From Streptomyces sp. NBC_00513 (GTDB lineage Bacteria > Actinomycetota > Actinomycetes > Streptomycetales > Streptomycetaceae), in contig NZ_CP107845.1 of assembly GCF_041431415.1 (NCBI RefSeq), positions 6,944,001 through 7,008,000 of the forward strand: a stretch of 64,000 bases of DNA. Reading direction: 5' to 3'. A model generated the notes under the pieces. That model ran no database searches. It was not told where the DNA came from and saw only the letters and a program-made list of their open reading frames with translations. Position 1 is the first letter of the stretch; each line of letters starts with the position of its first letter. Position numbers and translations under genes: made by a program. Positions 5,683-23,123 of this stretch are shown here, in pieces.

Positions 5683-5743
5683 AGACAGGGCGCTGACACT
5701 TCCTGTCAGAGAGGTGACAGCGGGAGGCCGGGTGAGGTGACGG
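5683..5743 (+). promoter_or_regulatory. phased TGACAG-like repeats, candidate SARP box for the precursor gene
   Basis: Hexamers AGACAG (5683), TGACAC (5694), TGTCAG (5704), TGACAG (5715) and TGACGG (5738) follow each other at 11, 10, 11 and 23 bases. SARP regulators are known to bind direct repeats spaced by about 11 or 22 bp just upstream of the -10 region. The array lies 70-130 bases before the precursor start, in the spacer shared with the divergent amidohydrolase. Direct sequence observation; the link to the SARP gene at 20826 is inferred. Confidence 0.5.
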
Positions 5744-5815
5744 CGCGACCGGTTCTGATGGAAGGGCACCACAGCAAGGGCACCACAACCACCGCACTCG
5801 ACCGAAGGAGTCACC

Positions 5816-5989
5816 ATGGAGAAGTCCCCCCTCGCCTCGCTCGCCGACGAGATCCTGGAGCTGGAGTCCGAGACCTTCGAGATCTCCGACTACTCGGACG
5901 CCAGCGAGGTCGTGCTCGCCGGCTCCACGAGCTGCAGCTCCACGTCGACCTGTTCCTCGACGACCAGCACCACCTCCTGCAGCGCCTGA
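5816..5989 (+). CDS. RiPP precursor peptide (azole/dehydroamino-acid class)
   Basis: A 57-residue peptide from ATG 5816 with a GAAGGAG site five bases upstream. Residues 1-36 are an acidic leader (LADEILELESETFEISDYSD) ending in VVLAG. The FEI-S-D stretch resembles thiopeptide leaders such as berninamycin and nosiheptide types. Residues 37-57 are the putative core, starting STSCSSTSTC and ending TTSCSA: 10 Ser, 7 Thr, 3 Cys and a last Ala. So every residue but one could be cyclised to an azol(in)e or dehydrated. The gene stands alone on the + strand, convergent to the modification operon, with its own upstream repeats and terminator. The exact cleavage site is not known; the AG/S junction is a guess. 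Confidence 0.88.
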   Translation: MEKSPLASLADEILELESETFEISDYSDASEVVLAGSTSCSSTSTCSSTTSTTSCSA

Positions 5990-6002
5990 CCCGAGCGCGG
6001 GA

Positions 6003-6038
6003 ACGCCCCGGTCCCCGCACGCGCGGGGGCCGGGGCGT
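6003..6038. terminator. terminator after the precursor gene
   Basis: ACGCCCCGG-T-CCCCGC (6003-6018) pairs with GCGGGG-G-CCGGGGCGT (6023-6038), giving 16 pairs with one G-T wobble and an ACGC loop, 14 bases after the precursor stop. It lies between convergent transcription units and could serve both. Confidence 0.75.
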
Positions 6039-6045
6039 CGTGCGT

Positions 6046-6117
6046 CGCCGGGGCGCCAGAGGACGCCGGGGCGCCAGAGGACGCCGGCACGCCAGAGGAA
6101 CCGGGCGCGCCGGCGGA
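6046..6117. repeat. 18-bp tandem repeat, three to four copies
   Basis: CGCCGGGGCGCCAGAGGA occurs at 6046-6063 and 6064-6081 exactly, at 6082-6099 with two changes, and as a degenerate copy at 6100-6117. The block fills the gap between the precursor terminator and the stop codon of the minus-strand YcaO gene. The unit length is a multiple of three, but no convincing gene reads through it. Confidence 0.8.
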
Positions 6118-6128
6118 ACCGGGGGCCG

Positions 6129-8120
6129 TCAGGGGAACGGGTGCGGCACCATCCGGATGTCGGCGTCCGTCAGGTCCGTCCCGCGGAGTCCCGCCCGCCG
6201 TGCGGCCGTCCTCAACCGGGGCATGTACGGGGCCCTTTGCCGCGACCAACCGAAGTCGATGGGCAACAGCCCCGGCACGATCGCGCACACCGTGCTCAGT
6301 CCCGCCCGCAGTTGCTCCGGCGTCGTCTGGTCGACCACGATCACCTCGTGCCCGATGCGCGCCAACTCCGCGACGACCCAACGGAGATCATTCCGCAGGT
6401 CCTCCGACGCGGGTCGCCCGTCCGGCCCCGTCGACGGGTCGAGATCCGCCAGGGGACGAACGGCCGGCGGATCCAGGTACGTCCCCACGTGCGGGGCCAT
6501 CTCGGGCAGCCCGTACAACTGCGCGTGGTCCTTCAGGTGTCGCACCCGACCGAAGTCGGCCGCCATGGCACGGAGTTCGCCCAGCCGCTCCGCCACCTGC
6601 CCCGGCAGATGCGGGATGTAGGTGAGCACCTCCGACAAGGCGGCCTCCACCGCCGCCGCCGGCTCCAGCGCCGCGCCCGCCCCGAAGGAGAACAGGCCCG
6701 GCCCGCCGTCGCGACGCACCGCCAGCGCGGTCACCACCGGGACCGCCATGTCGATCCGGTTGTCGAAGGCGTGCACGTCGTACCCCTGGAGAGCCGCCCG
6801 ATCCACCATCATGCGGACCGCGGCGCCCGGTACCGTCGCCAGGTCGATCTCCGGCAGCCGCAGGCCGCCGTACCAGGCCAGCAGGAAGGCGTCGCGCTCG
6901 ATCAGTTCGAGCAGCGCCCCGAGCAGCGCCTCCTCCACACAGCTGCCGATGGCGCAGCCGTTGGAGCACTCGAAGACGAAGTTGTCGGCCTCCACCCCCG
7001 CGCTGTAGTGCACCAGCCGCGCCGGCACCAGCACGGGCCGGTCCGCACCCAGCGCGTGCCCGTACACCCAGGGGATGGGGCGCCGCGGATCGAACGGGGA
7101 GACCAGCGGGTCGTCCCGGTAGGTGGCGGGCGCGTAGAAACCGCACCGCGCCGGATCCAGGGCCCGATCGCCCAACTCCGCGTAGGAGGCCATCAGCAGG
7201 GAGCTCCCCGTCCTGCGGTGGGTCCCCGCATAGCGCTCCAGCCCCTCCAGGAACGCGAGGTCGCGGCTCCCCTCGAAACTGTTGGCCTGCCCGCTCCAGG
7301 TGACGTCCGTCAGACCGGCGTAACCGCGCATGAACACGCTGCCCGCGACCGGCGCGGTGGTGGGGGAGGTGACGTTGATCCAGGTGCCCCCGCCCAGCAC
7401 CCCCGTGACCGGATTGGCCAGCGCCTCCCGCGGCAACGGGTACGAGGAGGCCGCGCGCAGCCGTCGCGCGCCCGGGTGGGGCTTCGGCCGCGACCGCGCG
7501 ACGAACGGCCGGGGCCCGTCGGTCCCGCGCGGTCCGCAGTCCGGACACAGCGGGTCGGCGGCCAGCGGATGGTGGGTGACCGCCAGCGTCTCCAGGTCCA
7601 ACCGGGACACCCGCGGCAGCGCCCGGTCGGCCGCCGACGGGCCGACCTCGGCCACCTCCCCGCCGAAGACCGCGCGGTGCAGGGCGTGGACGGCATCCCG
7701 CGCGAACGCGGTCAGCCAGGGCCGCTCCCGGGCCGCCGGGACCGGCGTGCCGACGCCGGTCTCCAGCGCGTCCCGCTCGCTGCGGCTGCGCAACCGCTGC
7801 CGCCGCATCGCCAGACACTGCCCGCAGGCCGGGGCCGTACCGTCGCCGCCCCAGGGGCCCACCAGGACGTCCCGCGCGCTCAGGTGCACCGTGGCGGCCG
7901 GCCGGACCCCGGCGAAGGGGTCGGCGGCGCGCGGTCCGAGGGCGTCGTGGACGCCGAGGGTGACCACCGTCGCACCGAGCCCGGCGAGGGCCCCCGCCAG
8001 CTCCCGGCGGGCCCGCTCCAACGGAGTCCCGTCGGGGGCCGAGGGCGCCGTCGACCGGGGAGCCCCGGATCCGGGGCCCGCCGGCTCCGGGGTCGTCGCG
8101 TCCGCGAGGGTCCCGGTCAT
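6129..8120 (-). CDS. YcaO-domain protein 1 (azoline-forming cyclodehydratase)
   Basis: 663 residues from ATG 8120. The N-terminal part (about 1-220) is a reduced E1/ThiF-like region with two Cys pairs, CGQC near residue 98 and CPDC near 191, likely binding zinc. The C-terminal YcaO domain follows (about 235-663). It carries the ATP-site elements FLEGLERYAG, ECSNGCAIG and LIERDAFLLAWYG, then VVDQTTPEQ and the terminal PHPFP, a PxPxP tail needed for cyclodehydratase activity. YcaO enzymes use ATP to cyclise Cys/Ser/Thr to azolines, or to make thioamides or amidines. The start overlaps the permease stop by four bases, so it is the last gene of the operon. It is a clear paralogue of the YcaO at 16556. 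Confidence 0.92.
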   Translation of the reverse strand: MTGTLADATTPEPAGPGSGAPRSTAPSAPDGTPLERARRELAGALAGLGATVVTLGVHDALGPRAADPFAGVRPAATVHLSARDVLVGPWGGDGTAPACGQCLAMRRQRLRSRSERDALETGVGTPVPAARERPWLTAFARDAVHALHRAVFGGEVAEVGPSAADRALPRVSRLDLETLAVTHHPLAADPLCPDCGPRGTDGPRPFVARSRPKPHPGARRLRAASSYPLPREALANPVTGVLGGGTWINVTSPTTAPVAGSVFMRGYAGLTDVTWSGQANSFEGSRDLAFLEGLERYAGTHRRTGSSLLMASYAELGDRALDPARCGFYAPATYRDDPLVSPFDPRRPIPWVYGHALGADRPVLVPARLVHYSAGVEADNFVFECSNGCAIGSCVEEALLGALLELIERDAFLLAWYGGLRLPEIDLATVPGAAVRMMVDRAALQGYDVHAFDNRIDMAVPVVTALAVRRDGGPGLFSFGAGAALEPAAAVEAALSEVLTYIPHLPGQVAERLGELRAMAADFGRVRHLKDHAQLYGLPEMAPHVGTYLDPPAVRPLADLDPSTGPDGRPASEDLRNDLRWVVAELARIGHEVIVVDQTTPEQLRAGLSTVCAIVPGLLPIDFGWSRQRAPYMPRLRTAARRAGLRGTDLTDADIRMVPHPFP

Positions 8121-8872
8121 GCCTGGTTGCTCCACCGGAAGGTCTTCAGGCCGATGGCCCCGAACAGGAGGGCGAAGCCGGCCAGCGCCGCGCACCCGAC
8201 ACCGATCGTGGCGAGCGAGCCCGACCCCGTCAGCGAGCCGGTCGCGGCGTCGTTGAGGTACCGCAACGGCAACACCCGGGAGACCGACCGGAGCCAGGAC
8301 GGCATCATGTCCAGCGGCAGGAACGACCCGGACAGGAACGCCATCGGCACCATCATGCAGTTGGCGATGGCCGCGACCGCCTCGGGCGTGTTCGCGTAGG
8401 TGCCCACGATCACCCCGATCGCCATGAAGGCGGTGATGCCCAGCACCAGCGCGGGCAGCACCAACGGCCAGCGCCCGTCCAGCTCCAGCCCGAAGCCGGG
8501 CAGCATCGCCACCGCCACGAACACCGCGGCCTGCACCACGCCGACGACCAGCGCCAGTACGTACCGCGAGGCGAGCACCGTGGTCAACGGCGTCGGCGTC
8601 AACCGGATCAGCCGCAGCAGGTCGTCGCGCCGCCACTGCATGAGGGTGAAGGCGATGCCGAACACCGCGGCGTTGGCGACGCCCCACGACATCACGCCCG
8701 GCGCGATGTACGAGATGTAGGGGCGGCCGCTCTCCTCGACGTCCTGCCCGCTGAAGATCAGCCCGAAGACGACCAGGAAGAGCAGGGGGAAGGCGAAGGT
8801 GAAGAAGAGGGTGGCCTTGTCCCGGACCTGCGCCCGGTAGCCGGCTGCGGTCAGGGCCGTGTACGCGCTCAT
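8117..8872 (-). CDS. ABC-2 type transporter permease
   Basis: 251 residues with about six hydrophobic segments (for example LFFTFAFPLLFLVVFGLIF and YVLALVVGVVQAAVFVAVAML). A C-terminal PLRYLNDA is typical of ABC-2/DrrB-like drug-export permeases. ATG 8872 overlaps the ATPase stop in an ATGA, so the two are translationally coupled. With the ATPase it probably exports the finished peptide or gives self-protection. Confidence 0.9.
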   Translation of the reverse strand: MSAYTALTAAGYRAQVRDKATLFFTFAFPLLFLVVFGLIFSGQDVEESGRPYISYIAPGVMSWGVANAAVFGIAFTLMQWRRDDLLRLIRLTPTPLTTVLASRYVLALVVGVVQAAVFVAVAMLPGFGLELDGRWPLVLPALVLGITAFMAIGVIVGTYANTPEAVAAIANCMMVPMAFLSGSFLPLDMMPSWLRSVSRVLPLRYLNDAATGSLTGSGSLATIGVGCAALAGFALLFGAIGLKTFRWSNQA

Positions 8873-9816
8873 GCCTGGGACTCCGTCGGGTGGTGGTGTG
8901 CTGTGCCGGTCAGTTCGAGGTAGACGTCCTCCAGGGTGGCCGTCCGGGTCATCACCCCGTCGAGCCCGGTGAGTCCGTCCAGGGCCTGGAGGACCTTGCC
9001 GGGCACGGCGGTCTCCAGGACCAGCGAGCCGCCCTGGAGGTCGGCCCGGTCCACCCCGGGCAGAGCCGAGGCCTCCTCGACGCCGATCCTGCCGAGGGGC
9101 AACAGCAGCCGGGCCGGGGCCCCGGCCGCCGTGACGAGCCGGTGCGGCGAGTCCAGGGCGGCCACCTTGCCGCCGACCAGGATCGCCACCCGGTCGCACA
9201 AGGCCTCTGCCTCGTCCAGGTGGTGGGTGGTGTAGACGATGGTGCGGCCCTCGCTCTTGAGGGTGCGCAGCACCTCCCACAGGTCCCGGCGGGCCTGCGG
9301 GTCGAGAGCGGCGGTCGGCTCGTCCAGGAAGATCAGCTCGGGGTCGTGGACCAGGGCCGAGGCGATGGCCAGGCGCTGGCGCTGACCGCCGGAGAGGTTC
9401 TCGACCAGCACCCCGCCCTGCTCGGTCAGCGCGACCGTCTCCAACGTGCGGGCGGCGGCGGCCCGGTCGCGGCGGTAGAGACCCGCGACGGTGGAGAGGT
9501 GTTCGAGGGCGGTCTGTCGTACGAAGAAGGCCGACGCCTGGGTCTGCACGCCGATGCGGGGCAGCAGCGCGGTGTTGCGCGGCCAGGGACTCTGGCCGAG
9601 GACCCGGACGGTGCCCGAGTCGGCCTGGCGCAGTCCTTCCATGATCTCGATGAGGGTGGTCTTGCCCGCGCCGTTGGGGCCGAGCAGGCCGAAGAACTCG
9701 CCGCGGCGCACGTCGAGGGATATCCCGTCGACGGCATGCCGGTCGCCGTAGCGCTTGCGGACGTCCTCGATGGTGACGGCGGACTCGTCGGCCGGCCGGT
9801 TGCTGTCAGTTGTCAT
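8869..9816 (-). CDS. ABC transporter ATPase (ABC-2/DrrA-like)
   Basis: 315 residues from ATG 9816. Walker A GPNGAGKTT is near residue 46, the Q-loop lies in GVQTQ, the signature LSGGQRQR is near 145, Walker B FLDEPTAALD near 165 and the switch His in TTHHLDEAE near 200. The C-terminal tail of about 90 residues is of the drug-exporter type. An extended upstream frame exists, but it is low-complexity (repeated GATCGGG-like DNA at 9840-9925), so the internal ATG was chosen. It pairs with the permease at 8117 for peptide export or immunity. Confidence 0.92.
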   Translation of the reverse strand: MTTDSNRPADESAVTIEDVRKRYGDRHAVDGISLDVRRGEFFGLLGPNGAGKTTLIEIMEGLRQADSGTVRVLGQSPWPRNTALLPRIGVQTQASAFFVRQTALEHLSTVAGLYRRDRAAAARTLETVALTEQGGVLVENLSGGQRQRLAIASALVHDPELIFLDEPTAALDPQARRDLWEVLRTLKSEGRTIVYTTHHLDEAEALCDRVAILVGGKVAALDSPHRLVTAAGAPARLLLPLGRIGVEEASALPGVDRADLQGGSLVLETAVPGKVLQALDGLTGLDGVMTRTATLEDVYLELTGTAHHHPTESQA

Positions 9817-9928
9817 GGGATGTGCGGTTCCCTCGGTGTCGGGATCGGAATCGGTGCGGGTCGTGCGAGGAGCGGATTCGGGGTCGGATCGGGGACGGGG
9901 ACGGTTGCGGACACGGATCGGGTCGGGG

Positions 9929-11053
9929 TCAGGTCGTGGTGGCCACCGCGTACCAACAGGCGGCCGCCGCACCGCAGAGGAGCAGCAGCACGAGAACGGC
10001 CGAACCGATGCCGTACGCGAGGTAGATCCGGCGCGCCCGGGCGGGGTACGCGGCCGCGGCGGTCCGGTCGCGCAGCCGCAGCCGCAGGTAGGCCGAACCG
10101 GCCGGAGCCAGCCGGGTCACCCGCAGGCCGTGGCCGAGCATCGTGTAGCCGTCGAGCGGCGGCAGCGGAAGGAGGTTGACCAGGGCCTGGACACTGCCGA
10201 GCAGCAGCAGCGCCCCCAGCACCCGGCCGGTGGGGTCGCCGACCGGCAGGGCGGCCCACCACCCGAGGAAGGGCAGCAGGAACAGCAGGTTGGCGAAGGC
10301 CCCCGCCCCGGCGACGGCCAGCTGGTGACGACGGCGGCGCAGGTAGCGGTAGTTGTCGACGGTGCAGTACATGAGGGCGGCGGGCAGCCGCCACCGCAGC
10401 CCGATCTCGCCGACGCTCCCCCCGACGTGGCGGGCGGCCACCCCGTGCGCGAACTCGTGGAGGGCGGTGCTGAGCCACATGAGCGTGGCCACGGCCAGCA
10501 GCGGCACCGGACGCGAGAGCAGCCACCACAGGTCGCCCACGAGCCGGCCCGCCGACGCGGCGAGCACCCCTTCCATGGCGAGGCAGCACAGCAGCAGCGC
10601 GACCAGTGCCACCGGACGCAACACGGGCCGCAGGAAGCGGTGCAGCCGGGCGGTCGTGGCGTCCGCGTCGGAGACCAGCCGCAGCGTGCCCCGCAGCAGG
10701 GTTCCGGTGCGTTGCGGCCCCGGGCCGGCCGCCGGCTCGGGCGGCGGTCCGCCCGCGAGCAGCCGCCGTGTACCGAGCAGGCCCAGCAACTGCTGCCAGT
10801 TCCGTTCGCCGAGCCTGCGTCCGAAGGCCTGGGCGTAGGCCTCGCCGATCTCCGCGAGGCTGCGCCGCCCGTCGAGCCGTGAGACGAGGAAGAACTCCTT
10901 GGGCCCGATCTCGAACGAGGCACCGGACACGGGGTCCTTGACCAGATGGACGGTCGCCGGGCCGTTGAGCAGCGGCGGCGACAGCAGGATCCCGGGCCGC
11001 AGCGCGGGCCGGTGCGCCGACATCCCGGAGGGCGCGGGGGAGGGGGCGCTCAC
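9929..11053 (-). CDS. M50-type membrane metalloprotease-like protein with N-terminal RRE-like domain
   Basis: 374 residues from GTG 11053, which overlaps the previous stop in a GTGA. Residues 20-105 (ATVHLVKDPVSGASFEIGPKEFFLVSRLDG...) look like a small winged-helix/PqqD-like module, the fold that binds RiPP leaders. Several membrane segments follow. The HEFAH zinc motif is near residue 198, and LLPLPPLDGY near 295 supplies the expected Asp of site-2-protease-like M50 enzymes. Its place between the dehydratase and exporter genes suggests leader removal or immunity. That role is inference. Confidence 0.82.
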   Translation of the reverse strand: MSAPSPAPSGMSAHRPALRPGILLSPPLLNGPATVHLVKDPVSGASFEIGPKEFFLVSRLDGRRSLAEIGEAYAQAFGRRLGERNWQQLLGLLGTRRLLAGGPPPEPAAGPGPQRTGTLLRGTLRLVSDADATTARLHRFLRPVLRPVALVALLLCCLAMEGVLAASAGRLVGDLWWLLSRPVPLLAVATLMWLSTALHEFAHGVAARHVGGSVGEIGLRWRLPAALMYCTVDNYRYLRRRRHQLAVAGAGAFANLLFLLPFLGWWAALPVGDPTGRVLGALLLLGSVQALVNLLPLPPLDGYTMLGHGLRVTRLAPAGSAYLRLRLRDRTAAAAYPARARRIYLAYGIGSAVLVLLLLCGAAAACWYAVATTT

Positions 11054-12111
11054 GGCCGGGCCGCCTCGGCGGCCCCGCTGCCCACGCCCTCCCGCAGCAC
11101 CCGACCCAGCAGGTGGGCGAGGTAGGCCTCGTCCCGGATCGTCACGTGCAGCCGATTGTTGGTCATGTGCATGTACGGGGACAGCAGCAGCGGCAGCGCC
11201 ACCGCCGGATCCGTCACCCGCTCGTCCCGGGTGCCGTCCCAGGAACGGAACACCAGCTCCCCGGAGGCGGCCAGCGCCCCCGCCCGCTCGCGCAGCTCCC
11301 GGCAGTGCTCGGCCCACCCGGCCAGGAACGCGGGCAGCCGCCCGGTCTCCCCGGACCCGAGCGCCTCTCGGACGGCCGCGAACCTGCGGGCGATCCCCGG
11401 CGCGCTCTGCCCGTACGTGCGGTCGTACTCGGCCGAACCGATGAAGCCGGTCCCCGGGAACGCCCGGTGCCAGAACTCGTAGTAGCGGTCCAGGTAGCCG
11501 CCGAGTTCCTCCCGGTCGGGCAGGAAGACCCCGGCCATCACCATCATCAACTGGGCCGACGTGCCCAACAGCACGGTCCGCAGGTGCAGGTTCATCGTTC
11601 CCAGCGCGTCCATGACGAGATCGCTGGAGTGCGCGAAGTGCCATTCGGCCAGCTCGACCCCGGCCGGGCCGCCGTACTTCCCGTACTCGGGCTCGTACGG
11701 CTCGTACGCGTACGAGTTGTTGGGCCGCAGGTTCATCCGGCCGTCCGGCCCCATGAAACCGGCGCGGTCGCCCTCGGGGAACTCGATGTCGAAGAGCGTG
11801 TTGTAGAACTCGTTGAGGAAGCCCGAGTCCACCTCGTACAACGCCGGCCGGGCCTTCAGGAACGCGGCGACGGCCTCCTCGGTGCGGCGCCGCACCTCCG
11901 GGGCGGCCTGCGGGGTCACGGGCCGCAGGCGCAACCGCACGTGCGGGCCCTCCAACCAGTAGTTGATGAAGAAGTGGCCGGCGAGCAGCCCGTCCTCGGT
12001 GAGCGAGGCGATCAACGGCCGCACGCACCGCACCAGCAACGGCTGCGGGTTGGCGGCATAGAAGACGTGCACCGCCTGCCATGCACCGCGCGTCTCGGTC
12101 AGCTCTGACAT
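11050..12111 (-). CDS. SpaB_C-type protein: LanB glutamate-elimination enzyme
   Basis: 353 residues from ATG 12111, overlapping the preceding LanB gene by 13 bases. The start AWQAVHVFYAANPQPLLVR, the core HFFINYWLEGPHVRLRLRP with its paired arginines, and the C-terminal HMTNNRLHVTI (about residue 314) match the elimination domain of LanB enzymes. The same fold is used by the thiopeptide [4+2] cyclase. As the neighbouring LanB protein stops after its glutamylation domain, this is most simply the missing elimination half, as in split thiopeptide and goadsporin dehydratases. It would remove glutamate to leave dehydroalanine or dehydrobutyrine. Confidence 0.85.
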   Translation of the reverse strand: MSELTETRGAWQAVHVFYAANPQPLLVRCVRPLIASLTEDGLLAGHFFINYWLEGPHVRLRLRPVTPQAAPEVRRRTEEAVAAFLKARPALYEVDSGFLNEFYNTLFDIEFPEGDRAGFMGPDGRMNLRPNNSYAYEPYEPEYGKYGGPAGVELAEWHFAHSSDLVMDALGTMNLHLRTVLLGTSAQLMMVMAGVFLPDREELGGYLDRYYEFWHRAFPGTGFIGSAEYDRTYGQSAPGIARRFAAVREALGSGETGRLPAFLAGWAEHCRELRERAGALAASGELVFRSWDGTRDERVTDPAVALPLLLSPYMHMTNNRLHVTIRDEAYLAHLLGRVLREGVGSGAAEAARP

Positions 12112-14903
12112 CGGGAACCGCCTTCCGGGCGTCGGTCGGGGGAGAGGGGTGACTGCGAGGGCTTCGAGGGGCCCGGGGAAGCCGGGAGGTTCGAGGGGCT
12201 CGGGACGGTGAAGGTCTCCACGGCCAGTTCCGCCACGTGGGCGCCCGCCGAGGTGTACGTGTGCAGCCCGTCGGGGTCGGGCAGCATCTCGCGGAAGACG
12301 ACCCGGTGGGCCGGATCCCGCAACAGCGACTCGAAGACGGAGAGGGAGAGCAGCGACGCGAAGTCGACGTACTGCGGCTTCGCACCGAGCGCCGACGACC
12401 CCGCCGACACGGTCGCGAACACCCGCTCGGGCAGTCCGTGCGTCCGGCGCCAGCGCTGCCACTCCACGAAGTGCGCGGCCTCCCGCGCTCCCGACACCGG
12501 CAGCTCACCGGCCGTCGTGCTCCACGAGCGCCGACTGAGCACCAGGTCCCCGTGGACGACCCGGGGACGCGAGGTCACCCCGTCACGCGCCGGACCCTCC
12601 GGCACGCCCGCCCACACGTCCAGCGGCGACATCGACGACGGGGACAGCAGCAGCAGGGTGCGCGGGATCGCGGGAAGGGCCAGCGGGACCAGATACCCCA
12701 GGTAGACGGGGATCACCTCGCGCCCCAACCGGTGCGAACGCAGGCCCACCCGCCCGGTCGCCGGATCGTGCTCGGCGTACAGGTCGCCGAGGTCCAGGCG
12801 GCGGTCCTCGGGAAGGGTCCCGCTCTCTCCCGGGCAGACGATCTCGTAGTCCGTCAGCGGTCCGTGCAGATTCAGGTTGGTCGTCACCGGCCCGCCGGTC
12901 ACCTCCGCGAACACCGCGCCCCCGGGGGTCACCCGGGAGGCCGTCGCGCGCAGCTCCCCGGCGAGGTCCGGGCGTCCTCCCGGCTCCTCCTCGTACACGT
13001 GCGTGAACCGGCTGAAGGGGAACGACAGACCGCCGTACGAGCGGTTCAGCACGGTCATCCGGTCGCCCGTGGCGGGGTCCCGGGCGAACTGAACGTGGTG
13101 GCAGCGCGGCGCGAACCCGGGCGCCACACCCTCCAGTTCGGCGGCGACGGCCGCCACGTCCTCCTCGGTGAGCCGCAGCCCGGCCCCGCCGGCCTCCTCG
13201 TGGTCCGACCAGCGCGCCCGCATCCGCGTCACGAACGCCCGCCGCGCCGCGTCCAGCGCCCGGAGTCCCGACAGACCCAACCAGTTCTCCTCGGGCACGT
13301 ACTCCCCGTGCGCGTCGAACGGGGTGCGCCGGGCCGTGAACGACAGGTACTGGTCGAAGAAGTCCTCATGGAAGTCGTGCACCAGACCCAACAGGTCCTC
13401 ACAACGACCGCCCGCACTGTACCGGGCGGTGAAGAACCCCTCGAAGGTGATGCGCTGCGCCAGCGTGAGGTCGAAGGCGGGCAGGATCCGCTCGACGGAA
13501 CGCAACGCGCCCCCGTCCGCCGTCCAGTCGGGCGCCGGGCACGACAGGTCACGACCCGCGCTGACGTCCTCGTACAACAGGGTCTGCGGCAGCGTCGTGT
13601 CCGGCGGGGCCCCCAACTCGCGTGCCACGGAGCCCAGATCGGCGCGCAGTGTCCGCAACAGGGTGGCCCGTTCCGCCGGCCCGGCGAGCGGGTAGCGCTC
13701 CAACACCCGCGCGGGCCCGTCCAGGAGCGCGACGAGGTCGTCGGCCCACGGTCGCTCCAGGGCGGTCAGCGACCGCCGGAAGGCGGCGAGCGGATCGCCG
13801 TCGTGGACCTCGGTGTCCAGGCACGGCACCCGGACCATGCCCAGCTCGATCAGAGCCGAGACGTACGCCTCGCACTCGGCCGGCGCCGCGCCGTGCTCCG
13901 CCGCCAACCAGTGGACGAGTTCGCGCCGGCGCAGCTCGGGCCGGTCCGCGAACAGGGCGAGCAGCCGGTCCAGGGTGCCGCTGCGCCGCAGGAAGAACAG
14001 CCGGTCCCGGACGGCGTCGAAGGTGACCGCCGCGGTGTCGTCCCCCGGCGTGACCGAGCGGCGGACGTACCGGATCCGCTCGTCCTCGCGCCCCCATCCG
14101 GAGGCCGGCCGCAGCGGCAGGTCCAGGCGGCGCACCGGGTCGTCGAGGATCAGCTCGGCGAGCCGGGCGAGCACCACGACGTTCAGCCGTACGCGACTGC
14201 TCCACCGGTCCTCGGCCCGGATGCCCTCGGTGCCCGCGTCGGCCCTGAACCGGCCGGTCGCCACCGCGGTGAAGGTGCTGAACGGGCTGGTCTTGCAGGC
14301 GGTGCGGTACACGTACGACAGCGCCGACCGCTCGACCTTGCGCGTGCGACCGCCCGGCTCGCGGCCGTCCGCCGTCGCCGCCGCGTACGCGTCGAGCTGC
14401 GCCTCCAGCACCGGCGAGGCCAACAACAGCCCGTGCCGCACCCGCTCGTCGGCGAGCAGCCGACGCAGCGCGTCACGACCGCGCCGCAGATCGGCGGCGA
14501 GCAACGCCTCCCCGTCGCCCCGCAGCTTCTCCAGCGCCGCCCGCCGCTCCAGCCAGCCCGCCAGCCGGTGCCCCACGTCCCCGCCCAGCCCGGCCACCAT
14601 CCGGACGGCCGCGTCCGGATCGGCGGGCGCCCGGCCGTTGTGGACCAGCCGCCGCAGCCTGAGCAGTTCCCGGCGCAGGGCCGCGCCCGGCCCGCCGGGC
14701 GCGGGGTCGGTCGCGCCGACCGCCCGGTGCAGCAGGTCACCGAGGAGCTCCGCGTCCGCGCGGACCACGTCCTCGGCGCTCAGCACATCGGCGGCCCAAC
14801 GCAGCGTGTCCGCGCTGCGCAGCCCGTCGACCGAGGTCAGGGGCAGCCCGGCCACGCGCAGCATGAAGCGGTCGCCCGCGTGCCAATCGGTGGTGGTGTT
14901 CAT
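12099..14903 (-). CDS. LanB-type dehydratase, glutamylation protein (Lant_dehydr_N)
   Basis: 934 residues from ATG 14903 (MNTTTDWHAGDRF). The conserved KTSPFSTFT is near residue 205. LNLHGPL and RTLLLLSPSSMSPLDVW lie in the second half, and WRRTHGLPERVF followed by EMLPDPDGLHTY is near the end. It would use glutamyl-tRNA to glutamylate Ser and Thr of the precursor. The protein ends where full-length LanB enzymes begin their elimination domain, which is encoded by the next gene. A longer start at 14972 is possible but overlaps the SagB gene. Upstream gap 55 bases; a weak AGGACG site precedes the ATG. Confidence 0.9.
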   Translation of the reverse strand: MNTTTDWHAGDRFMLRVAGLPLTSVDGLRSADTLRWAADVLSAEDVVRADAELLGDLLHRAVGATDPAPGGPGAALRRELLRLRRLVHNGRAPADPDAAVRMVAGLGGDVGHRLAGWLERRAALEKLRGDGEALLAADLRRGRDALRRLLADERVRHGLLLASPVLEAQLDAYAAATADGREPGGRTRKVERSALSYVYRTACKTSPFSTFTAVATGRFRADAGTEGIRAEDRWSSRVRLNVVVLARLAELILDDPVRRLDLPLRPASGWGREDERIRYVRRSVTPGDDTAAVTFDAVRDRLFFLRRSGTLDRLLALFADRPELRRRELVHWLAAEHGAAPAECEAYVSALIELGMVRVPCLDTEVHDGDPLAAFRRSLTALERPWADDLVALLDGPARVLERYPLAGPAERATLLRTLRADLGSVARELGAPPDTTLPQTLLYEDVSAGRDLSCPAPDWTADGGALRSVERILPAFDLTLAQRITFEGFFTARYSAGGRCEDLLGLVHDFHEDFFDQYLSFTARRTPFDAHGEYVPEENWLGLSGLRALDAARRAFVTRMRARWSDHEEAGGAGLRLTEEDVAAVAAELEGVAPGFAPRCHHVQFARDPATGDRMTVLNRSYGGLSFPFSRFTHVYEEEPGGRPDLAGELRATASRVTPGGAVFAEVTGGPVTTNLNLHGPLTDYEIVCPGESGTLPEDRRLDLGDLYAEHDPATGRVGLRSHRLGREVIPVYLGYLVPLALPAIPRTLLLLSPSSMSPLDVWAGVPEGPARDGVTSRPRVVHGDLVLSRRSWSTTAGELPVSGAREAAHFVEWQRWRRTHGLPERVFATVSAGSSALGAKPQYVDFASLLSLSVFESLLRDPAHRVVFREMLPDPDGLHTYTSAGAHVAELAVETFTVPSPSNLPASPGPSKPSQSPLSPDRRPEGGSRCQS

Positions 14904-14958
14904 CCTGAACGTCCTGGTTCTCTCGTCGTTGCGCCGAAGGAGTGCGTCGCGGTGCGGC

Positions 14959-16503: not shown

Positions 16504-16555
16504 ACGTCCTCCTACGGTCGTCGGTGGAGACCGGTCGAAACCGGCTGATGCTGCG

Positions 16556-18505
16556 TCAAGGAAAGGGATGCGGGGCCGGGTTGAAGTCACCGGCGGCCCC
16601 ATCACCGGATTCGCCGGGCTGCGTGTACCTCCGCAGCCGAGGCATCCCGAGCGCCCGCTGCCGCGACCAACCGAAGTCGATCGGCAGCAGCCCCGGCACC
16701 AGGACGCTCACCGTGTGCAGCCCCAGCGTCCGTTGCTCGGGCAGCGTCTGGTCGACGACCACCACGTCGAACCCGGCGCCGGTCACGGCCCCGACGCACC
16801 GGTCCAGGTCCTCGCGGACGTCCGTCGACACACCACCGCCCGAGGCATCCGACCAGGACAGGTCCGACACCGGGGCCGGTGGCCGGTCCCGCGGTCCACG
16901 CAACAGGAAATCGGCGTGTCGGCCCATCTCCGGCACCCCGTACACCAGCGGATGGTCGTGCAGCGCCGTCACCAGGTCGAAGTCGGCGGCCATGGCCCGC
17001 AACCGGGCCTCGTCACGCTCGGTCCGGCCGGCCAGGTTCACGGCGTCCGTCGCGATCTCGCACAGCGCGGAGTCCAGGGCCGATTCCGGGTCCAGGCCGG
17101 CCCCCGCCCCGAAGCACATCCGTCCGAGCCCCCCGTCGAACCGTTCCGCGACGGCGGTCACCACGGGGATCGGGAAGTCGACCCGGGTGTCGAAGAACCG
17201 CGCCCGGTACCCGTACAGGGCCAGCCGGTCGACCATGGCCCGCGTCGATGCCCGCGTGCTGGTCGCCGGGTCGATCTCGGGCAGCCGCCGGCGCCCGTAC
17301 CACGCGAGCAGGAACGCGTCCCGCTCGACGACCTCCATCAGCCCGAAGTAGCAGGCTTCGGCCAGACTCCCCCCGGAGGCGCACCCGTTGGAGCTCTCCT
17401 GCACGAACCGGTTCTCCAGACCCGGCGCGTGATAGTAGGTCAGGATCTCCGGAACCAGCCGCGGTTCCCGATCGCGCAGCGACCAGCCCCACACCCAGGG
17501 AATCTCCCGATCGGGATCGAAGGGTCGCACCCGCGGGTTGTCCCGGTGGAAGTCCGAGTCGTACAGGCCGACCTCGCGCGGATCCACGGCGTGCCCCGCG
17601 AACTCGGCGAGCGAACCGCGCACGTTCGTCACGCGCGACCGAGCGCGCATCCCCGCGTAACGCTCCAATCCCTCCAACACCCCGACCAGTGCGCTCCGTT
17701 CGAACGACTCCGTGTGGCCGCCCCAGAACGTCTCGCGCAAGTAGTCGCCCGACCGCATGGAGAAGCAACCGATCGTCGCGGAGGTGGAGGTGGAGGAGAC
17801 GTCCTGGACCAGGGAGGGCCCCAGGGCCCCGCACAGCGGGTTCGCGAACGCCCCCACGTCGATGCCGTACTCCTCCACGCGCCGAGTACGGAACACCCCC
17901 GGCCGGTACTTCACCGCCGGCGCCGGCTCCAACGACCTCGGTGCGTCCACGACGGGAACGGCGCACACCGGACACTCGGGATCGGGCACCAGCGGATGCC
18001 GTCGGACCGTGCCGGCCCGCAGGTCCAGCACCCGCACCTCGGGGAACGGCCCGGCCCCCGGGCCCGCGCCGGAGGCGACTCCCGCGACCAGCGCCGCGAG
18101 GACATCGGCGGCGAAGGCGTGCGCGTACGGCCACTCACCCGCCGGCCGGGTGCCGCCGCCCAACTCCAGCGCGTCCCGCAGCGCCACCGAGCGGACCCCC
18201 TGCCAACGCCGCTCCAGACAGTGCGGACACCCCGCCCCGCCCGCAGGCCGTACGACCGGACCGACGACGGCCTGGTGGCCGTACAGCCAGACGGGCACGG
18301 CGCCCGGGGAGGCTTCCGCGGCGGTCCCGGACGCGGCGTCCACCGCGGGCGACGACCCGCCGGGACCGGCGAACGCGTCCCGCACCCCGAGCGCCGACAA
18401 CCGCACGGGCGGCGCGCCGAGGGCGTCCAGCGACCGTCGCAGCAGGTCGGCGAACCGCCCGGCCGCCTCGACCCCGAGCCCGTCCACGAGCGCGCTACGC
18501 GTCAT
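16556..18505 (-). CDS. YcaO-domain protein 2 (azoline-forming cyclodehydratase)
   Basis: 649 residues from ATG 18505, overlapping the F-protein stop by 11 bases. The layout copies YcaO protein 1: CPHC near residue 93, CPVC near 179, then the YcaO domain with VLEGLERYAG, ESSNGCASGG, VVERDAFLLAWYGRRRLPEID and VVVDQTLPEQ. The tail NPAPHPFP again ends in PxPxP. Shared stretches such as LLPIDFGWSRQRA show the two arose by duplication. Being next to the F-protein, this copy is the better candidate for the main azoline synthase. Copy 1 may differ in site or residue preference. Confidence 0.92.
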   Translation of the reverse strand: MTRSALVDGLGVEAAGRFADLLRRSLDALGAPPVRLSALGVRDAFAGPGGSSPAVDAASGTAAEASPGAVPVWLYGHQAVVGPVVRPAGGAGCPHCLERRWQGVRSVALRDALELGGGTRPAGEWPYAHAFAADVLAALVAGVASGAGPGAGPFPEVRVLDLRAGTVRRHPLVPDPECPVCAVPVVDAPRSLEPAPAVKYRPGVFRTRRVEEYGIDVGAFANPLCGALGPSLVQDVSSTSTSATIGCFSMRSGDYLRETFWGGHTESFERSALVGVLEGLERYAGMRARSRVTNVRGSLAEFAGHAVDPREVGLYDSDFHRDNPRVRPFDPDREIPWVWGWSLRDREPRLVPEILTYYHAPGLENRFVQESSNGCASGGSLAEACYFGLMEVVERDAFLLAWYGRRRLPEIDPATSTRASTRAMVDRLALYGYRARFFDTRVDFPIPVVTAVAERFDGGLGRMCFGAGAGLDPESALDSALCEIATDAVNLAGRTERDEARLRAMAADFDLVTALHDHPLVYGVPEMGRHADFLLRGPRDRPPAPVSDLSWSDASGGGVSTDVREDLDRCVGAVTGAGFDVVVVDQTLPEQRTLGLHTVSVLVPGLLPIDFGWSRQRALGMPRLRRYTQPGESGDGAAGDFNPAPHPFP

Positions 18506-20717
18506 CGCGGGGCTCCCGCGGCGCGGTCAGCAGCACCCGCACGGTGTGGATGCCCACGCCCGTCACGTCCGCCGACCCGGTCCGTACCACGTACGCGTCC
18601 CGTCCGGCGGCCTCCAGGCGCGCCGACACCGCGGTCCAGTCGGTCCCGGCCCCGCCCCCGACGGGGGCGGCCTCGCCGGCCACCGCGAGCGCGCGCGGGT
18701 CCAGGTCCCGCAGCAGCGGATCACCGGTGTCCGCGACGGAGCCCGTCACCGTCGCGTCGCCCTCGTACTGCGCCGCGCCCAGCAGCTCCCGCAGCGCCTC
18801 CACCGCCGCCGCACGACGATCCAGACCGGCGCCGACCGCCCAGCGCTCCCCGGTCCGGGCCACCATCACCTGCGCACCGCTGTGCGCGCCCTCACCCAGG
18901 TCCAGGAGCTCCACCGGCAACCCCAACCGGTCCGCGGACCGTACGAGGAACACCAGCTCGGCGTCCGACCCTTCGGCCTCCGGCCCGTCCGCGTCGGGCA
19001 GCGGCACGACGGCGGCGCCCCCGCCCCGTACGACGCGCAGCAGCGCGGCGTGCCCCAGCGCCGACAGCAGACCGGCGGCAGCGGCGTCGGCCGTGGAGGG
19101 ACCGGCGCCCGCCCCGGCCCGGGTCCGCTCGAAGAGCCGGTCCGCGTTGTACGGCCCGAACGGTCTGACCGCGCCCGCCGGCACCAGTACGGGCTCCTTC
19201 GTGAGCAGGGACACGGCCCGCTCCCAGGCGTGGACCCGGCCCGGCAGCCCGCTCGCGAGGGCCAGCGCCGCCGCCTCGACGACGGGCAGCGACCCGTCGT
19301 CGGCCAGGGGCCCGCGCGCCGGAACCACGTGCTCGGCGTACACCAGCGCGGCCGCGTCCAACGCGCGCATCCGCGCCCCGGCGACGTGGTGGACGTCGAA
19401 GGCGGCCACCGAGCGCCGGCCGGTGTGACCGATGCCCAGCTCGACCACGCCGAGCTTCAGGGGCAGCTGGGTCAGAGCCTCGTCCGCGTACCGGGTGAAC
19501 ACCCCGGCGCGTGGCCGTACCAGCGTGGAGCGCCGGTTCAGTTCCTCCACCAGGGCGTCGGCCTCGCGGGCCGTCTCCACCGTGGGCAGCGACACCGCGC
19601 CCGACGCGCCGGCCGCGGCGAGGTCCACCGGCTCCGCCTCGCCGGGATCGGCCTCCGCGCAGAACGGACAGCGCGGATGGCGCGGCAGAGGCTCGGCGGT
19701 GACGTCCAGCGACTCCACGTCCTGGACCAGGAGCCGGCCGGAGGTCTCCGCCGGCAGGGCGCCCGAGGCCGTGCGGAACACCTCGTACCCGAGCAGGTTG
19801 CCGATCATCGCGGCCAGCGGCCGTCCCGGCACCGGGCCGACCGGCGCCGGCGCCCCCGGCAGGGTCAGCGCGCTCCACAGCTCGGCCGAGGCACCGGCGG
19901 TGTCCCCGTTCGCGCCGAGCCGCAGGGCCGCGCAGGCCCAGCACCCCGTGGTCCCGTGGGTCATCAACGGTCCGACGACGGCGTCGGAGCCGTACGACCA
20001 GGCCGGCAGGAGGGTGCGGCCCTCGGGTATGCCGGCGCGCAGCAGGGGCAGCAGCCGGGCCGCCGCGGCCGTCCCGCCCGTCACCACCACGGTGTCGAAA
20101 CCGTCCAACGCGGCCCAACCGGGTTCCGCTCCGAGGTCGGCCAGCGGGCGCACCTCCACCGGGGCGCCGTCGGCCGAGGCCTCCGCGGCCTCCCGCTCGA
20201 TCTCCCCGAGGTCCGGTCCCGGCAGCACGCCGACGAGGGCGGAGCCGTTGCGCACCAGGCTCAGGGCGCACCAGCGGGCGATGGGGTCGTCCCCCAGCAC
20301 CGCCACCCGCGTGTCGCGGAACCGCAGGAAGCGGTTCTCGGCGTCGTCGGCGTAGTGGTCGGCGTACGCGATCTGCGGGGCGAAGCGCCGTGCGACGTCG
20401 GGCGGGAGGACCGGTGCCGCGTCCGTCGCCGGCTCGCTGACGGAGCGGGCGAAGTCCCGTTCGTAGAGGGTCTTGACGAGCTCACCGAACATGGCCCGGT
20501 GGTCGTCGCCGAGCCCCTCGCACAACGCGGCGACGGTGTGCTCGCCGGTGAGGTGCGGCACCACGAGAGTGGCGAACCGGTACGCGGTACGGGCGTTGAG
20601 CCGGAACCCGCCGTCGGTGTTGTGGAACAACACGCCCTCGGGCGTCTGCGTGAAGAGCACGTCCCGGCGGATCCGGGGCCGGGTCGTGGCGACGGCTTCG
20701 TAACTGGCTTGGGACAT
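18495..20717 (-). CDS. F-protein / TOMM leader-peptide-binding protein (Ocin-ThiF-like)
   Basis: 740 residues from ATG 20717. Residues 1-110 (RRDVLFTQTPEGVLFHNTDGGF...) form an RRE-like winged helix expected to bind the precursor leader. Then comes an E1/ThiF-like Rossmann region (VAVLGDDPIARWCALSLVRNG) with zinc cysteines CWAC near 259 and CPFC near 350, and a C-terminal part with YcaO-like repeats (LKLGVVELGIGHTGRR). In thiopeptide and related pathways this protein delivers the substrate to a YcaO enzyme and activates it. It is the first enzyme gene after the SARP regulator, 108 bases downstream. Confidence 0.9.
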   Translation of the reverse strand: MSQASYEAVATTRPRIRRDVLFTQTPEGVLFHNTDGGFRLNARTAYRFATLVVPHLTGEHTVAALCEGLGDDHRAMFGELVKTLYERDFARSVSEPATDAAPVLPPDVARRFAPQIAYADHYADDAENRFLRFRDTRVAVLGDDPIARWCALSLVRNGSALVGVLPGPDLGEIEREAAEASADGAPVEVRPLADLGAEPGWAALDGFDTVVVTGGTAAAARLLPLLRAGIPEGRTLLPAWSYGSDAVVGPLMTHGTTGCWACAALRLGANGDTAGASAELWSALTLPGAPAPVGPVPGRPLAAMIGNLLGYEVFRTASGALPAETSGRLLVQDVESLDVTAEPLPRHPRCPFCAEADPGEAEPVDLAAAGASGAVSLPTVETAREADALVEELNRRSTLVRPRAGVFTRYADEALTQLPLKLGVVELGIGHTGRRSVAAFDVHHVAGARMRALDAAALVYAEHVVPARGPLADDGSLPVVEAAALALASGLPGRVHAWERAVSLLTKEPVLVPAGAVRPFGPYNADRLFERTRAGAGAGPSTADAAAAGLLSALGHAALLRVVRGGGAAVVPLPDADGPEAEGSDAELVFLVRSADRLGLPVELLDLGEGAHSGAQVMVARTGERWAVGAGLDRRAAAVEALRELLGAAQYEGDATVTGSVADTGDPLLRDLDPRALAVAGEAAPVGGGAGTDWTAVSARLEAAGRDAYVVRTGSADVTGVGIHTVRVLLTAPREPRDDA

Positions 20718-20825
20718 GGGTCACCCCTGATTGCGGTCTGGGCGGTACGGGGAGCGGAACGGACGGGTCGGGAGGCGCGGTGGGGCCGCCGGGCCGTGGT
20801 CGGCCGCGGCGGGGGTGGTCGGGTG

Positions 20826-22541
20826 TCAGTGCGCCGGGGGAGGGCCGCCGGCACGCTCACGCGCGATGTGACGCGCGTAGCCGTGCAGAAACGCGTGCAG
20901 ACGGTACGGATGGCCGGGCGGTCCGTCCTCCAGCATCCCGGCCTCCACCAGCTGTTCGAGGACGGTCGAGGGCCCGGCGGACGTGAGGTCGGCCCCCGGT
21001 TCGAGCGAGCCGAGGCGCAGGAACGCCTCGCGTGGCTCCGGGCCGAGTGCGGCCAGGGCCTGGCCGAACACCTCGGGCACGGACAGTCGGGGATCCTCCG
21101 CCAGGGCCAGCCGTGCGGGAGGATCCTGCGCGAGCCACGCCGAGCAGTCGGCGACCGAGAGCCCGGGGCGGGTCAGGAGCCGGCCCGCGGCGATGCGCAG
21201 GGCGAGAGGGAAGTACCCGCAGACGGAGGCCAGTTCGCGGGCCGCCTCCTCCTCGGCCGCGATCCGTTCCTCCCCGACGAGTCCGGCGAGCAGCGCGTAC
21301 CCCTCGCTCGCCTTGAGGACGTCCAGCCGGTGCACGGAGCCGCCGCGCGTCGCGACGACGGCCGCGAGTCCGCGTCGGCTGCTGACCACCACGGAGGTGT
21401 CACCCGCGGTCGGCAGCAACGGCAGCACCTGCCCGGCGCCGACGGCGTCGTCGAGGATCAACAGCCTTCTGCCGTCGCCGGGTTCGGGCAGCAGCTTGCG
21501 GGCCTCCTCGACATCGACGGGACTCCCGTCCGACCGGGCCAACGGGACCGTGAACACCCCTCCGGGGAAGGCGTCCTGTACCTCGTACGCGCTCTGCCGG
21601 ACCAGCGCCGACTTGCCGATCCCGGGCGCACCCGACACCACGATCAGCCGCGGCCCGCCCGGGGCGGTCAACCGTGCCGCGATGGCGCCGCGGTCGGCCT
21701 CGCGCCCGGTGAAACCCGTCACGGGTGACACCCGCTCGGTGGTGGCGGCCGGCAACTCCATGACCACCGGCGGTCTTCGCGCGACGACGGGGATCGGCCG
21801 CCCGAGTTCCTCGGCCCGCAGGATGGCCAGCTCCAACCGCCGCAGTCCCGGTCCGGGATCGACCCCGAGTTCGTCGCGCAGTCGATCCTTGATCGCCCGG
21901 TACTCGGCCAGGGCCTCCGCCTGTCTCCCGGTGCGGTAGAGCGCCTCGATGAGCTGCTCGGTGAAGCGTTCGCGCACCGGATGCCGGCGAGCGCCCTCGT
22001 AGAGGTCGACGAGCACCTGGTGGCAGTTCCCGGCGGCGAGTTCCAGATCGCAGACGCGCTCCAGGACTCGCAACCGCTCCTGCTCCAGGGCCGGGACGGC
22101 GTCCCGCTGGAGCATGCGCGAGGCCACGTTGGCCAGTGGCTGCCCCTGCCACAGGGCGAGCGCCGCGCGGAGTCGGTACAACTCCTCTTCCTCGCCGGCG
22201 GCGGCGCGCGCCTGCCCCGCGAGAAATCGGAACAGTGCGAGATCGAGGGTCTCGACGTCATTGGCCATACGGTATCCACCGGGTACGGCTTCAATGGTGG
22301 TGGCGGATATGCCGTACTTGACGAATAGCCGGCGAAGTCGCAGGACGCACGTCTGAAGTGCGGCCCGTGCGGTGGCGGGAGGTTCCTCGTCCCACACGGC
22401 TCGCAACAAATAGTCGGTGGAAACGACCGCGCCCGGATGCAACAGCAAAGCGGCGAGCAGGCTGGTTGGTTTGGATGGTTTGAGAACTACGGTTTCGGGG
22501 CCGTGGGCAATACTCAAGGGCCCCAGAAGCTGGAACCGCAT
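20826..22541 (-). CDS. SARP-family transcriptional activator with NB-ARC ATPase domain
   Basis: 571 residues from ATG 22541. Residues 1-95 are an OmpR-type winged helix (MRFQLLGPLSI, TDYLLRAVWDEEPP, VPGGYRM). Residues 95-245 are the BTAD helical domain (LYRLRAALALWQGQPLANV through EYRAIKDRLRDELGVDPGPGL). Residues 280-520 are an NB-ARC region with P-loop VSGAPGIGKSALVR and LLILDD. This is the medium-length AfsR/RedD-like class that switches on antibiotic clusters. The 5' end of the gene has noticeably lower GC than the rest. It leads the RiPP operon and probably activates both it and the precursor gene. Confidence 0.92.
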   Translation of the reverse strand: MRFQLLGPLSIAHGPETVVLKPSKPTSLLAALLLHPGAVVSTDYLLRAVWDEEPPATARAALQTCVLRLRRLFVKYGISATTIEAVPGGYRMANDVETLDLALFRFLAGQARAAAGEEEELYRLRAALALWQGQPLANVASRMLQRDAVPALEQERLRVLERVCDLELAAGNCHQVLVDLYEGARRHPVRERFTEQLIEALYRTGRQAEALAEYRAIKDRLRDELGVDPGPGLRRLELAILRAEELGRPIPVVARRPPVVMELPAATTERVSPVTGFTGREADRGAIAARLTAPGGPRLIVVSGAPGIGKSALVRQSAYEVQDAFPGGVFTVPLARSDGSPVDVEEARKLLPEPGDGRRLLILDDAVGAGQVLPLLPTAGDTSVVVSSRRGLAAVVATRGGSVHRLDVLKASEGYALLAGLVGEERIAAEEEAARELASVCGYFPLALRIAAGRLLTRPGLSVADCSAWLAQDPPARLALAEDPRLSVPEVFGQALAALGPEPREAFLRLGSLEPGADLTSAGPSTVLEQLVEAGMLEDGPPGHPYRLHAFLHGYARHIARERAGGPPPAH

Positions 22542-23123
22542 GAAGGTCCCCCGTGTCGGGTCACGTATGGAGCGGAACGGCGAATGACGGGGGCGGTGGT
22601 CGGCCGAGCCCGCGAGCGAGGCCCGGCACGGAACTGGTCCATACCAAGCCTGTAGCTGCTCTCCCGCCCCCCGTTGGGCGGTGGATAAACGGAACACTAC
22701 ATAACGGATCTTGTGAAAGTCGAGCCATGCGCCGGCTCGAATCCGATGTGACGGGTGTTCCTCTCCTTTCCGTCACATGACCGCCCCGTGGAGTTACCGG
22801 CGGCTCGTCAAAAAGGTTCAGGCGTAAACGAATCATGAGTGTGAGGCCTGGTCGGCACGAATGAGAATCGCTATCCCGCCGGCGATATGACTGATCCTCG
22901 ACGGTCGAATCCGGCCACGATGGCCTTGAAGAATCGGAAGCCGAGCGCGCGTCACGTCCGGGACGCGCGGCGGCCCGCCGGGACCGCGCCGCACCCGTCG
23001 GGGGGTCCGGGAGTCGTCCGTACGGGGGAACCGTGAAATCGGTCGCCGAAGGGCGGAATGCCGCGCGTCTCCAAGCGGTTCGGACAAGCGCGACACCCGA
23101 ACTCCGCACGCACTGGAGAGCTC
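22542..23123. other. 582-base divergent intergenic region
   Basis: The region lies between the SARP start (minus) and the oxidoreductase start (plus). I see no coding sequence with proper GC3 bias. The middle (22680-22900) is relatively AT-rich and should hold the promoters. The one clear element is the 9-bp dyad at 22746-22778, listed separately. The stretch 22940-23090 is GC-rich without recognisable structure. Confidence 0.6.
22746..22778. promoter_or_regulatory. 9-bp inverted repeat in the SARP promoter region
   Basis: ATGTGACGG (22746-22754) is repeated inverted as CCGTCACAT (22770-22778) with a 15-base spacer, about 205 bases upstream of the SARP start. The core GTGACGG also occurs at 5737-5743 before the precursor gene, and GTGACAG occurs at 5714. 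This suggests a common operator, possibly for the SARP itself or for a higher regulator. The repeat is certain; the function is inferred. Confidence 0.5.

Follow-up and report, generated by a model that had tools for sequence, protein, structure and literature searches.

A conserved Streptomyces gene cluster with a nearly all-modifiable precursor core probably directs synthesis of a linear, goadsporin-like azole peptide

The 64,000-nucleotide stretch of Streptomyces sp. NBC_00513 analysed here as a whole (contig NZ_CP107845.1, positions 6,944,001 to 7,008,000; hereafter the window, whose coordinates are used below) carries a gene cluster for a ribosomally synthesised and post-translationally modified peptide (RiPP), which probably makes a linear azole peptide rich in dehydroamino acids and works like that of goadsporin. 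The cluster is real, complete, widespread and of a known kind, and what is unusual about it is its fixed and nearly all-modifiable core. The original prediction, made from the window's sequence, of an azole- and dehydroamino-acid-forming RiPP with an extreme core held, and comparisons of the cluster's PF14028 protein sharpened it to a linear, goadsporin-like product rather than a thiopeptide, because this sole PF14028 protein appears to be of the elimination type.

The precursor open reading frame (ORF), which is preceded by AAGGAG, was recovered at the predicted position and length, and its core, STSCSSTSTCSSTTSTTSCSA, was confirmed to consist of 10 Ser, 7 Thr, 3 Cys and 1 Ala, that is, 20 of 21 residues are Ser, Thr or Cys, as had been claimed. 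The precursor scored above the cut-offs of two NCBIfam models, TIGR03892 thiopep_precurs (49.5 bits; cut-off 25) and NF033400 thiazolyl_B (41 bits; cut-off 30), and hence qualifies as a thiopeptide-type precursor, and a Pfam search at E 0.01 returned no family for it. A domain search of the window's proteins also bore out the predicted set of enzymes, exporter and regulator. On the strand opposite to the precursor, from 22541 down to 6129, lie the genes of a Streptomyces antibiotic regulatory protein (SARP), F-protein, YcaO-1, SagB, LanB_N, LanB_C, an M50-like protease, an ATP-binding cassette (ABC) ATPase, an ABC-2 permease and YcaO-2. The predicted limits of the cluster (5683 and 22778) had to be revised at both ends, as the SARP gene most likely starts at 22541 and the left end reaches an M20 hydrolase gene at 4388-5647, which, like a SARP-like repeat at 5704-5720, was absent from that prediction.

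A LanB_N scan of genome contigs yielded 93 confirmed loci, of which 80 were kept; their hosts are Streptomyces, with one record named Streptomycetaceae bacterium, two Micromonospora and one Sphaerimonospora. All ten enzyme, transport and regulator genes were matched in 60 of the 80 loci and their order was kept in 60 of 60, indicating that the grouping is not due to chance. An M20 match was found in 64 loci: in 57 it sits no more than 1.5 kb from the precursor, in six it is at the far end of the cluster, and the remaining one (L037) has no recognisable precursor. The M20 hydrolase gene likely belongs to the cluster, in which it may act in trimming or self-protection. From 66 of 81 loci (the 80 and the window), 69 precursors were recovered. 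Among the 15 loci without one, 12 end at a contig edge and three (L017, L030 and L037) have no recognisable precursor; L037 keeps both YcaO-2 and M20, the genes that would be expected to flank a precursor. In six loci (L027, L033, L039, L065, L078 and L083), the precursor is instead next to the SARP end of the cluster, and a variant core, CTSTSSTSTSSSTCSTTSCSA, is carried by exactly these six. In overlapping genome samples that include the window's genome, the precursor was present in 47 of 295 genomes of the genus, 15 of 394 genomes of the class and 15 of 100 relatives. The identical core also turned up in G063, a genome of the same order that belongs to a different family, and more distant relatives have tandem variants, such as TTSTSSTSTCSSCTSCTSCASF; in L095 (G037; 13814-14273), two divergent tandem precursors share the leader family and have altered cores, one with Asp following Cys. 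No precursor relative was found among 600 pattern stretches checked in viral contigs, and the four plasmid records with LanB relatives reached 38.6% identity at best.

The constancy of the core was then set beside the drift of the enzymes. The window's core is exact in 36 of the 69 precursors, and the remaining ones, aligned from the C-terminus, vary only at core positions 1, 2, 4, 10, 12, 14 and 20. The mean pairwise amino-acid identity was alike for the core (0.935) and a 28-residue part of the leader (0.954), and it was 0.631 for LanB_N, 0.722 for LanB_C, 0.579 for the F-protein, 0.570 for the M50-like protease, 0.581 for SARP, 0.749 for the ABC permease and 0.682 and 0.675 for the two YcaOs; except for the YcaOs, these values come from single-precursor loci and from ORFs selected by length (64 cores, 36 to 63 sequences per enzyme). 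Among the 479 locus pairs with a LanB_N identity of 0.55-0.60, the cores were identical in 29%, and among the 20 pairs below 0.55, no cores were identical. For the 35 further precursors with an identical core, the DNA encoding the core takes 34 distinct forms, which differ from the window's at between 0 and 16 of the 63 bases (8.5 on average), and, therefore, the identity of most of them does not come from recent DNA copying. Nei-Gojobori ratios (core 0.60, leader 0.15; two Micromonospora precursors of differing length dropped from the 69) oppose a simple reading in which the core is the most constrained part; we do not rely on them because the two codon families of Ser would inflate the non-synonymous counts. 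In most RiPP families, cores diversify faster than enzymes. It may be possible, though we consider it rather doubtful, that Streptomyces and its kin use the product as a conserved chemical signal or morphogen, with a conserved receptor reading a largely fixed strand of alternating azoles and dehydroamino acids, so that the core would be kept constant while the enzymes drift. A core that is nearly fixed and almost wholly modifiable, present in about a sixth of the genomes sampled from an antibiotic-making genus and also outside its family, calls for a common target or sensor.

The arrangement of Cys residues in the core would fit a regular modification pattern. In 16 distinct aligned cores (10 from the related loci and six from more distant relatives, cut to 21 residues), 45 of 54 Cys fall in the 1 mod 3 class of positions, in which six of the seven positions carry Cys in some core; in a test devised after the cores had been seen, column permutations matched 45 of 54 in any class in 48 of 20000 cases. 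The two divergent precursors of G037, the long core of L124 and the short core of L125 allow no gapless alignment and were left out. Residues other than Ser, Thr and Cys occur before position 21 only at position 20 (five cores) and position 12 (one core). The core may thus be read in register as LA[G S T][S C S][S T S][T C S][S T T][S T T][S C S]A, giving up to seven azoles and six dehydroalanine (Dha) or dehydrobutyrine (Dhb) residues. In goadsporin, glutamylation depends on azoles, and the azoles at T5 and S15 are required for Dha to form at S4 and S14 (PMC5303826).

In the pathway that we propose, SARP would activate the precursor gene from a TGNCAG-N5-TGNCAG site, and the leader would be held by the F-protein and the C-like domains of both YcaOs. 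The YcaOs, sharing the work in some manner, would cyclise every third residue and SagB would oxidise the rings, resulting in azoles at core positions 1, 4, 7, 10, 13, 16 and 19, with thiazoles from C4, C10 and C19 and an oxazole or methyloxazoles from S1, T7, T13 and T16. The split LanB would then glutamylate and eliminate the residue before each ring, producing Dha or Dhb at S3, S6, T9, S12, S15 and S18 and leaving residues 2, 5, 8, 11, 14, 17 and 20 unmodified. The chain would stay linear because no pyridine synthase was found. Finally, the M50-like protease would cut off the leader at a putative site before the core, the end may be trimmed by the M20 hydrolase, and the product would leave the cell through the ABC exporter.

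Several features of the enzymes are consistent with this pathway. PxPxP is a mark of active cyclodehydratases, and PHPFP terminates both YcaO-1 and YcaO-2 in 66 of 66 orthologues each; both proteins are also over the cut-off of the SagD model (308 and 333 bits; cut-off 219). The F-protein, which has a YcaO-like tail without PxPxP, scored 53 bits with the ocin_ThiF model TIGR03693, far under the cut-off of 562. The HExxH of the M50-like protease is kept in 74 of 74 orthologues, and this protein is the probable leader peptidase. With respect to regulation, SARP sites are typically direct repeats at an 11-bp period, and TGNCAG-N5-TGNCAG was present in 49 of the 69 precursor upstream regions and in none of 50 mononucleotide shuffles, a count that takes the loci as they stand, without control for relatedness. 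Its distance to the start was 93-135 bp in all but one of the 49 (156 bp), and other spacings from 0 to 15 were found in at most nine upstream regions. This repeat may be the binding site of SARP.

A rival possibility is that the product is already known, as spongiicolazolicins reported from Streptomyces sp. CWH03 (Streptomyces pacificus CWH03). This strain has a syntenic cluster (L067) with a core identical to that of the window, and cleavage before AAEVVLAG-core or AEVVLAG-core would fit the 29 and 28 residues of spongiicolazolicins A and B, respectively, as given in a Streptomyces metabolite review. However, CWH03 has a second locus on another contig (L093/L094; G001:C1:41939-54900), which encodes a LuxR-type regulator, a YcaO, a nitroreductase, a Lant_dehydr_C protein and three tandem small ORFs; the ends of these ORFs (52, 59 and 61 amino acids) can be read as X-(S/T/C)-Y triplets, and cores of 29 residues can be drawn from them as well. 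The nostatin paper likens spongiicolazolicins to nostatin A and describes dehydro residues as less common in them, which suits the second locus better. Judging from these sequences, the second locus is the likelier source of spongiicolazolicins, and we regard the identity of the product with them, raised by the syntenic locus and weakened by the second one, as improbable.

A thiopeptide, in which a [4+2] cycloaddition joins two Dha into a pyridine macrocycle, was weighed on the type of the PF14028 protein. Of 150 genomes sampled from the genus, six passed the cut-off of the pyridine-synthase (TbtD) model, and the comparison used the six loci concerned, whose paired proteins we take to be TbtC-type and TbtD-type. 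A profile of the window-family PF14028 orthologues scored the TbtC-type protein above its TbtD-type neighbour in six of six loci (133.5/54.8, 132.1/56.3, 127.7/53.0, 78.7/48.9, 70.9/31.4 and 56.7/52.8 bits). The PF14028 protein has the His of HMxxNR (HMTNNR), which is His in six of six TbtC-type and Tyr in six of six TbtD-type proteins, and its RLR, the RxR before HMxxNR, is shared with six of six TbtC-type proteins (one as RFR) and one of six TbtD-type proteins. These residues have catalytic roles in NisB. Thus, the cluster's sole PF14028 protein seems to be of the elimination type and not of the pyridine-synthase type. No [4+2] pyridine synthase was found in the cluster or by a TbtD-model search of the genome, whose single match (98 bits; cut-off 325) is the cluster's PF14028 protein itself. 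The genome's other thiopeptide-type protein, an orphan matching TIGR03891 (L111 9560-10597; G000:C1:977559-978596), is 6 Mb from the cluster and has no YcaO or PF04738 match beside it and no TbtD-model match. In favour of a thiopeptide are the two precursor models described above, the fold of TbtD as the nearest solved one to the PF14028 protein, and the nearest solved relative of LanB_N, 6ec7 (E 1.6e-42), which is presumably TbtB; a very divergent synthase could also lie elsewhere in the genome. We set the thiopeptide reading aside as very unlikely on the profile and residue comparisons, although the fold search alone leaned the other way. A lanthipeptide-like product, formed by addition of Cys thiols to Dha or Dhb, would account for a LanB-type dehydratase and Cys in the core, and it is highly implausible given that no LanC cyclase was found among the scanned cluster genes and that SagB is conserved along with two cyclodehydratases whose PHPFP ends are intact.

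Against the linear, goadsporin-like product stand the following points. No product has been seen, and neither a goadsporin-type acetyltransferase nor a peptidase-ABC was found among the cluster genes scanned. The proposed pathway does not account for the retention of two cyclodehydratases. For the PF14028 protein, the last of the six profile contests was narrow, the nearest folds by Foldseek were TbtD (TM score 0.70 by query, 0.78 by target) and PbtD (0.65/0.75), with LanB dehydratases ranking lower (0.47-0.54 by query) and no stand-alone elimination enzyme named among the 50 fold matches listed, the best NCBIfam score was with the pyridine-synthase model, under its cut-off, and the match to the MibB motifs was weak (12.6 and -0.7 bits), with Lys replacing Arg before YGG. 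In addition, nine of the 54 Cys are out of register, and the SARP-like repeat is missing upstream of 20 of the 69 precursors.

Table 1. Features of the cluster, with their positions in the window, strands and supporting matches.
Feature	Position	Strand	Evidence or remark
M20-family amidohydrolase, 419 aa, divergent from precursor	4388-5647	-	PF01546/PF07687; TIGR01891 242 bits (cut-off 154)
SARP-like direct repeat TGTCAG-N5-TGACAG, 11-bp period	5704-5720	+	112 bp ahead of precursor start
Precursor peptide gene	5816-5989	+	57 aa; leader about 36 aa; core STSCSSTSTCSSTTSTTSCSA
YcaO-2, fused cyclodehydratase, C-terminal PHPFP	6129-8120	-	TIGR03882 + TIGR03604
ABC-2 type exporter permease	8117-8872	-	PF01061 92 bits
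ABC exporter ATPase, DrrA-like	8869-9816	-	PF00005 102 bits; drrA model best, under cut-off
M50-like intramembrane protease, HExxH	9929-11023	-	Pfam M50 27.5 bits (cut-off 27.2); daptide_HExxH NF041824 103 (cut-off 300)
Predicted LanB C-terminal-type glutamate-elimination enzyme (Lant_dehydr_C)	11050-12111	-	PF14028
LanB N-terminal-type tRNA-dependent glutamyl transferase (Lant_dehydr_N)	12099-14903	-	PF04738
SagB-type FMN azoline dehydrogenase	14959-16605, start uncertain	-	TIGR03605 131 bits (cut-off 78), PF00881
YcaO-1, fused cyclodehydratase, C-terminal PHPFP	16556-18505	-	Domain search
F-protein, ocin-ThiF-like leader-binding scaffold	18495-20717	-	TIGR03882 66 bits (cut-off 37), PF02624 51
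SARP regulator (BTAD + NB-ARC)	20826-22541	-	PF03704 120 bits

The LanB_N of the cluster was the one PF04738 protein found genome-wide. Elsewhere in the window, a tellurite-resistance-type gene outside the cluster encodes a TerD + TerF-type vWA protein (28394-29806), and another gene encodes a protein with a SAM hydroxide adenosyltransferase C-terminal domain (PF20257; 44202-45212).

The cluster had been called apparently undescribed. This stood insofar as the precursor was not found in open-access literature: a full-text search without supplements for pieces of its sequence gave no match, and its family was not seen in the open-access literature searched. It is weakened by the curated NCBIfam families, the presence in 47 of 295 genomes of the genus and the same core in CWH03. 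The natural enzyme variants acting on one near-constant substrate should help to show how Ser and Thr residues that look alike are shared out between two cyclodehydratases and a dehydratase, and the predicted masses can be sought in existing Streptomyces metabolomes. The neutral masses calculated for seven azoles and six Dha/Dhb are 1784.504 for a 22-mer (GSTSC...SA), 1855.541 for a 23-mer (AG-) and 1968.625 for a 24-mer (LAG-); for a 21-mer carrying six azoles and six Dha/Dhb the value is 1747.509, since ring formation at S1 requires the Gly ahead of it.

Among known systems, spongiicolazolicins belong to the same class, and their producer strain carries this cluster and core; they differ in having 29 or 28 residues and in coming more likely from the second CWH03 locus. 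Coryneazolisins (Cox et al. 2015) share two D proteins, lanthipeptide-like dehydratases, the lack of a [4+2] enzyme and a near-invariant precursor, whereas they are from Corynebacterium and, by description, have Ile mid-core (about 10 C/S/T, Ile, 5-7 C/S/T), and Ile is absent from all 10 distinct cores of the related loci. Thiopeptides of the thiomuracin TbtA-D type share the precursor family model, LanB_N and the F/YcaO enzymes and differ by their pyridine synthase, none having been found here. Dehydrazoles (carnazolamide) and nostatin A also contain Dha/Dhb-azole units, nostatin A as Dha-azole-X triplets, but use a LanM-type dehydratase and nitrile-hydratase-like leaders in place of the LanB and short acidic leader seen here; among the cluster genes scanned, no DUF4135 LanM-type dehydratase and only LanB domains were found. 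The goadsporin system (god cluster of Streptomyces sp. TP-A0584) differs in that two fused YcaOs, an F-protein, an M50-like protease, an M20 hydrolase and SARP are present here, in that a separate ABC ATPase and permease and the M50-like protease stand instead of its GodH/GodB (GNAT N-acetyltransferase and peptidase-ABC), and in that it has two dehydro residues compared with the six predicted here, in a core of Ser, Thr and Cys with one Ala. The predicted X-azole-Y grammar of the core would be that of goadsporin and of nostatin A. Both systems, goadsporin's and the present one, combine YcaO, a dehydrogenase and a split LanB without a [4+2] enzyme, the goadsporin-type combination, and goadsporin is a linear product with azoles and Dha, each Dha preceding an azole, as is predicted here.

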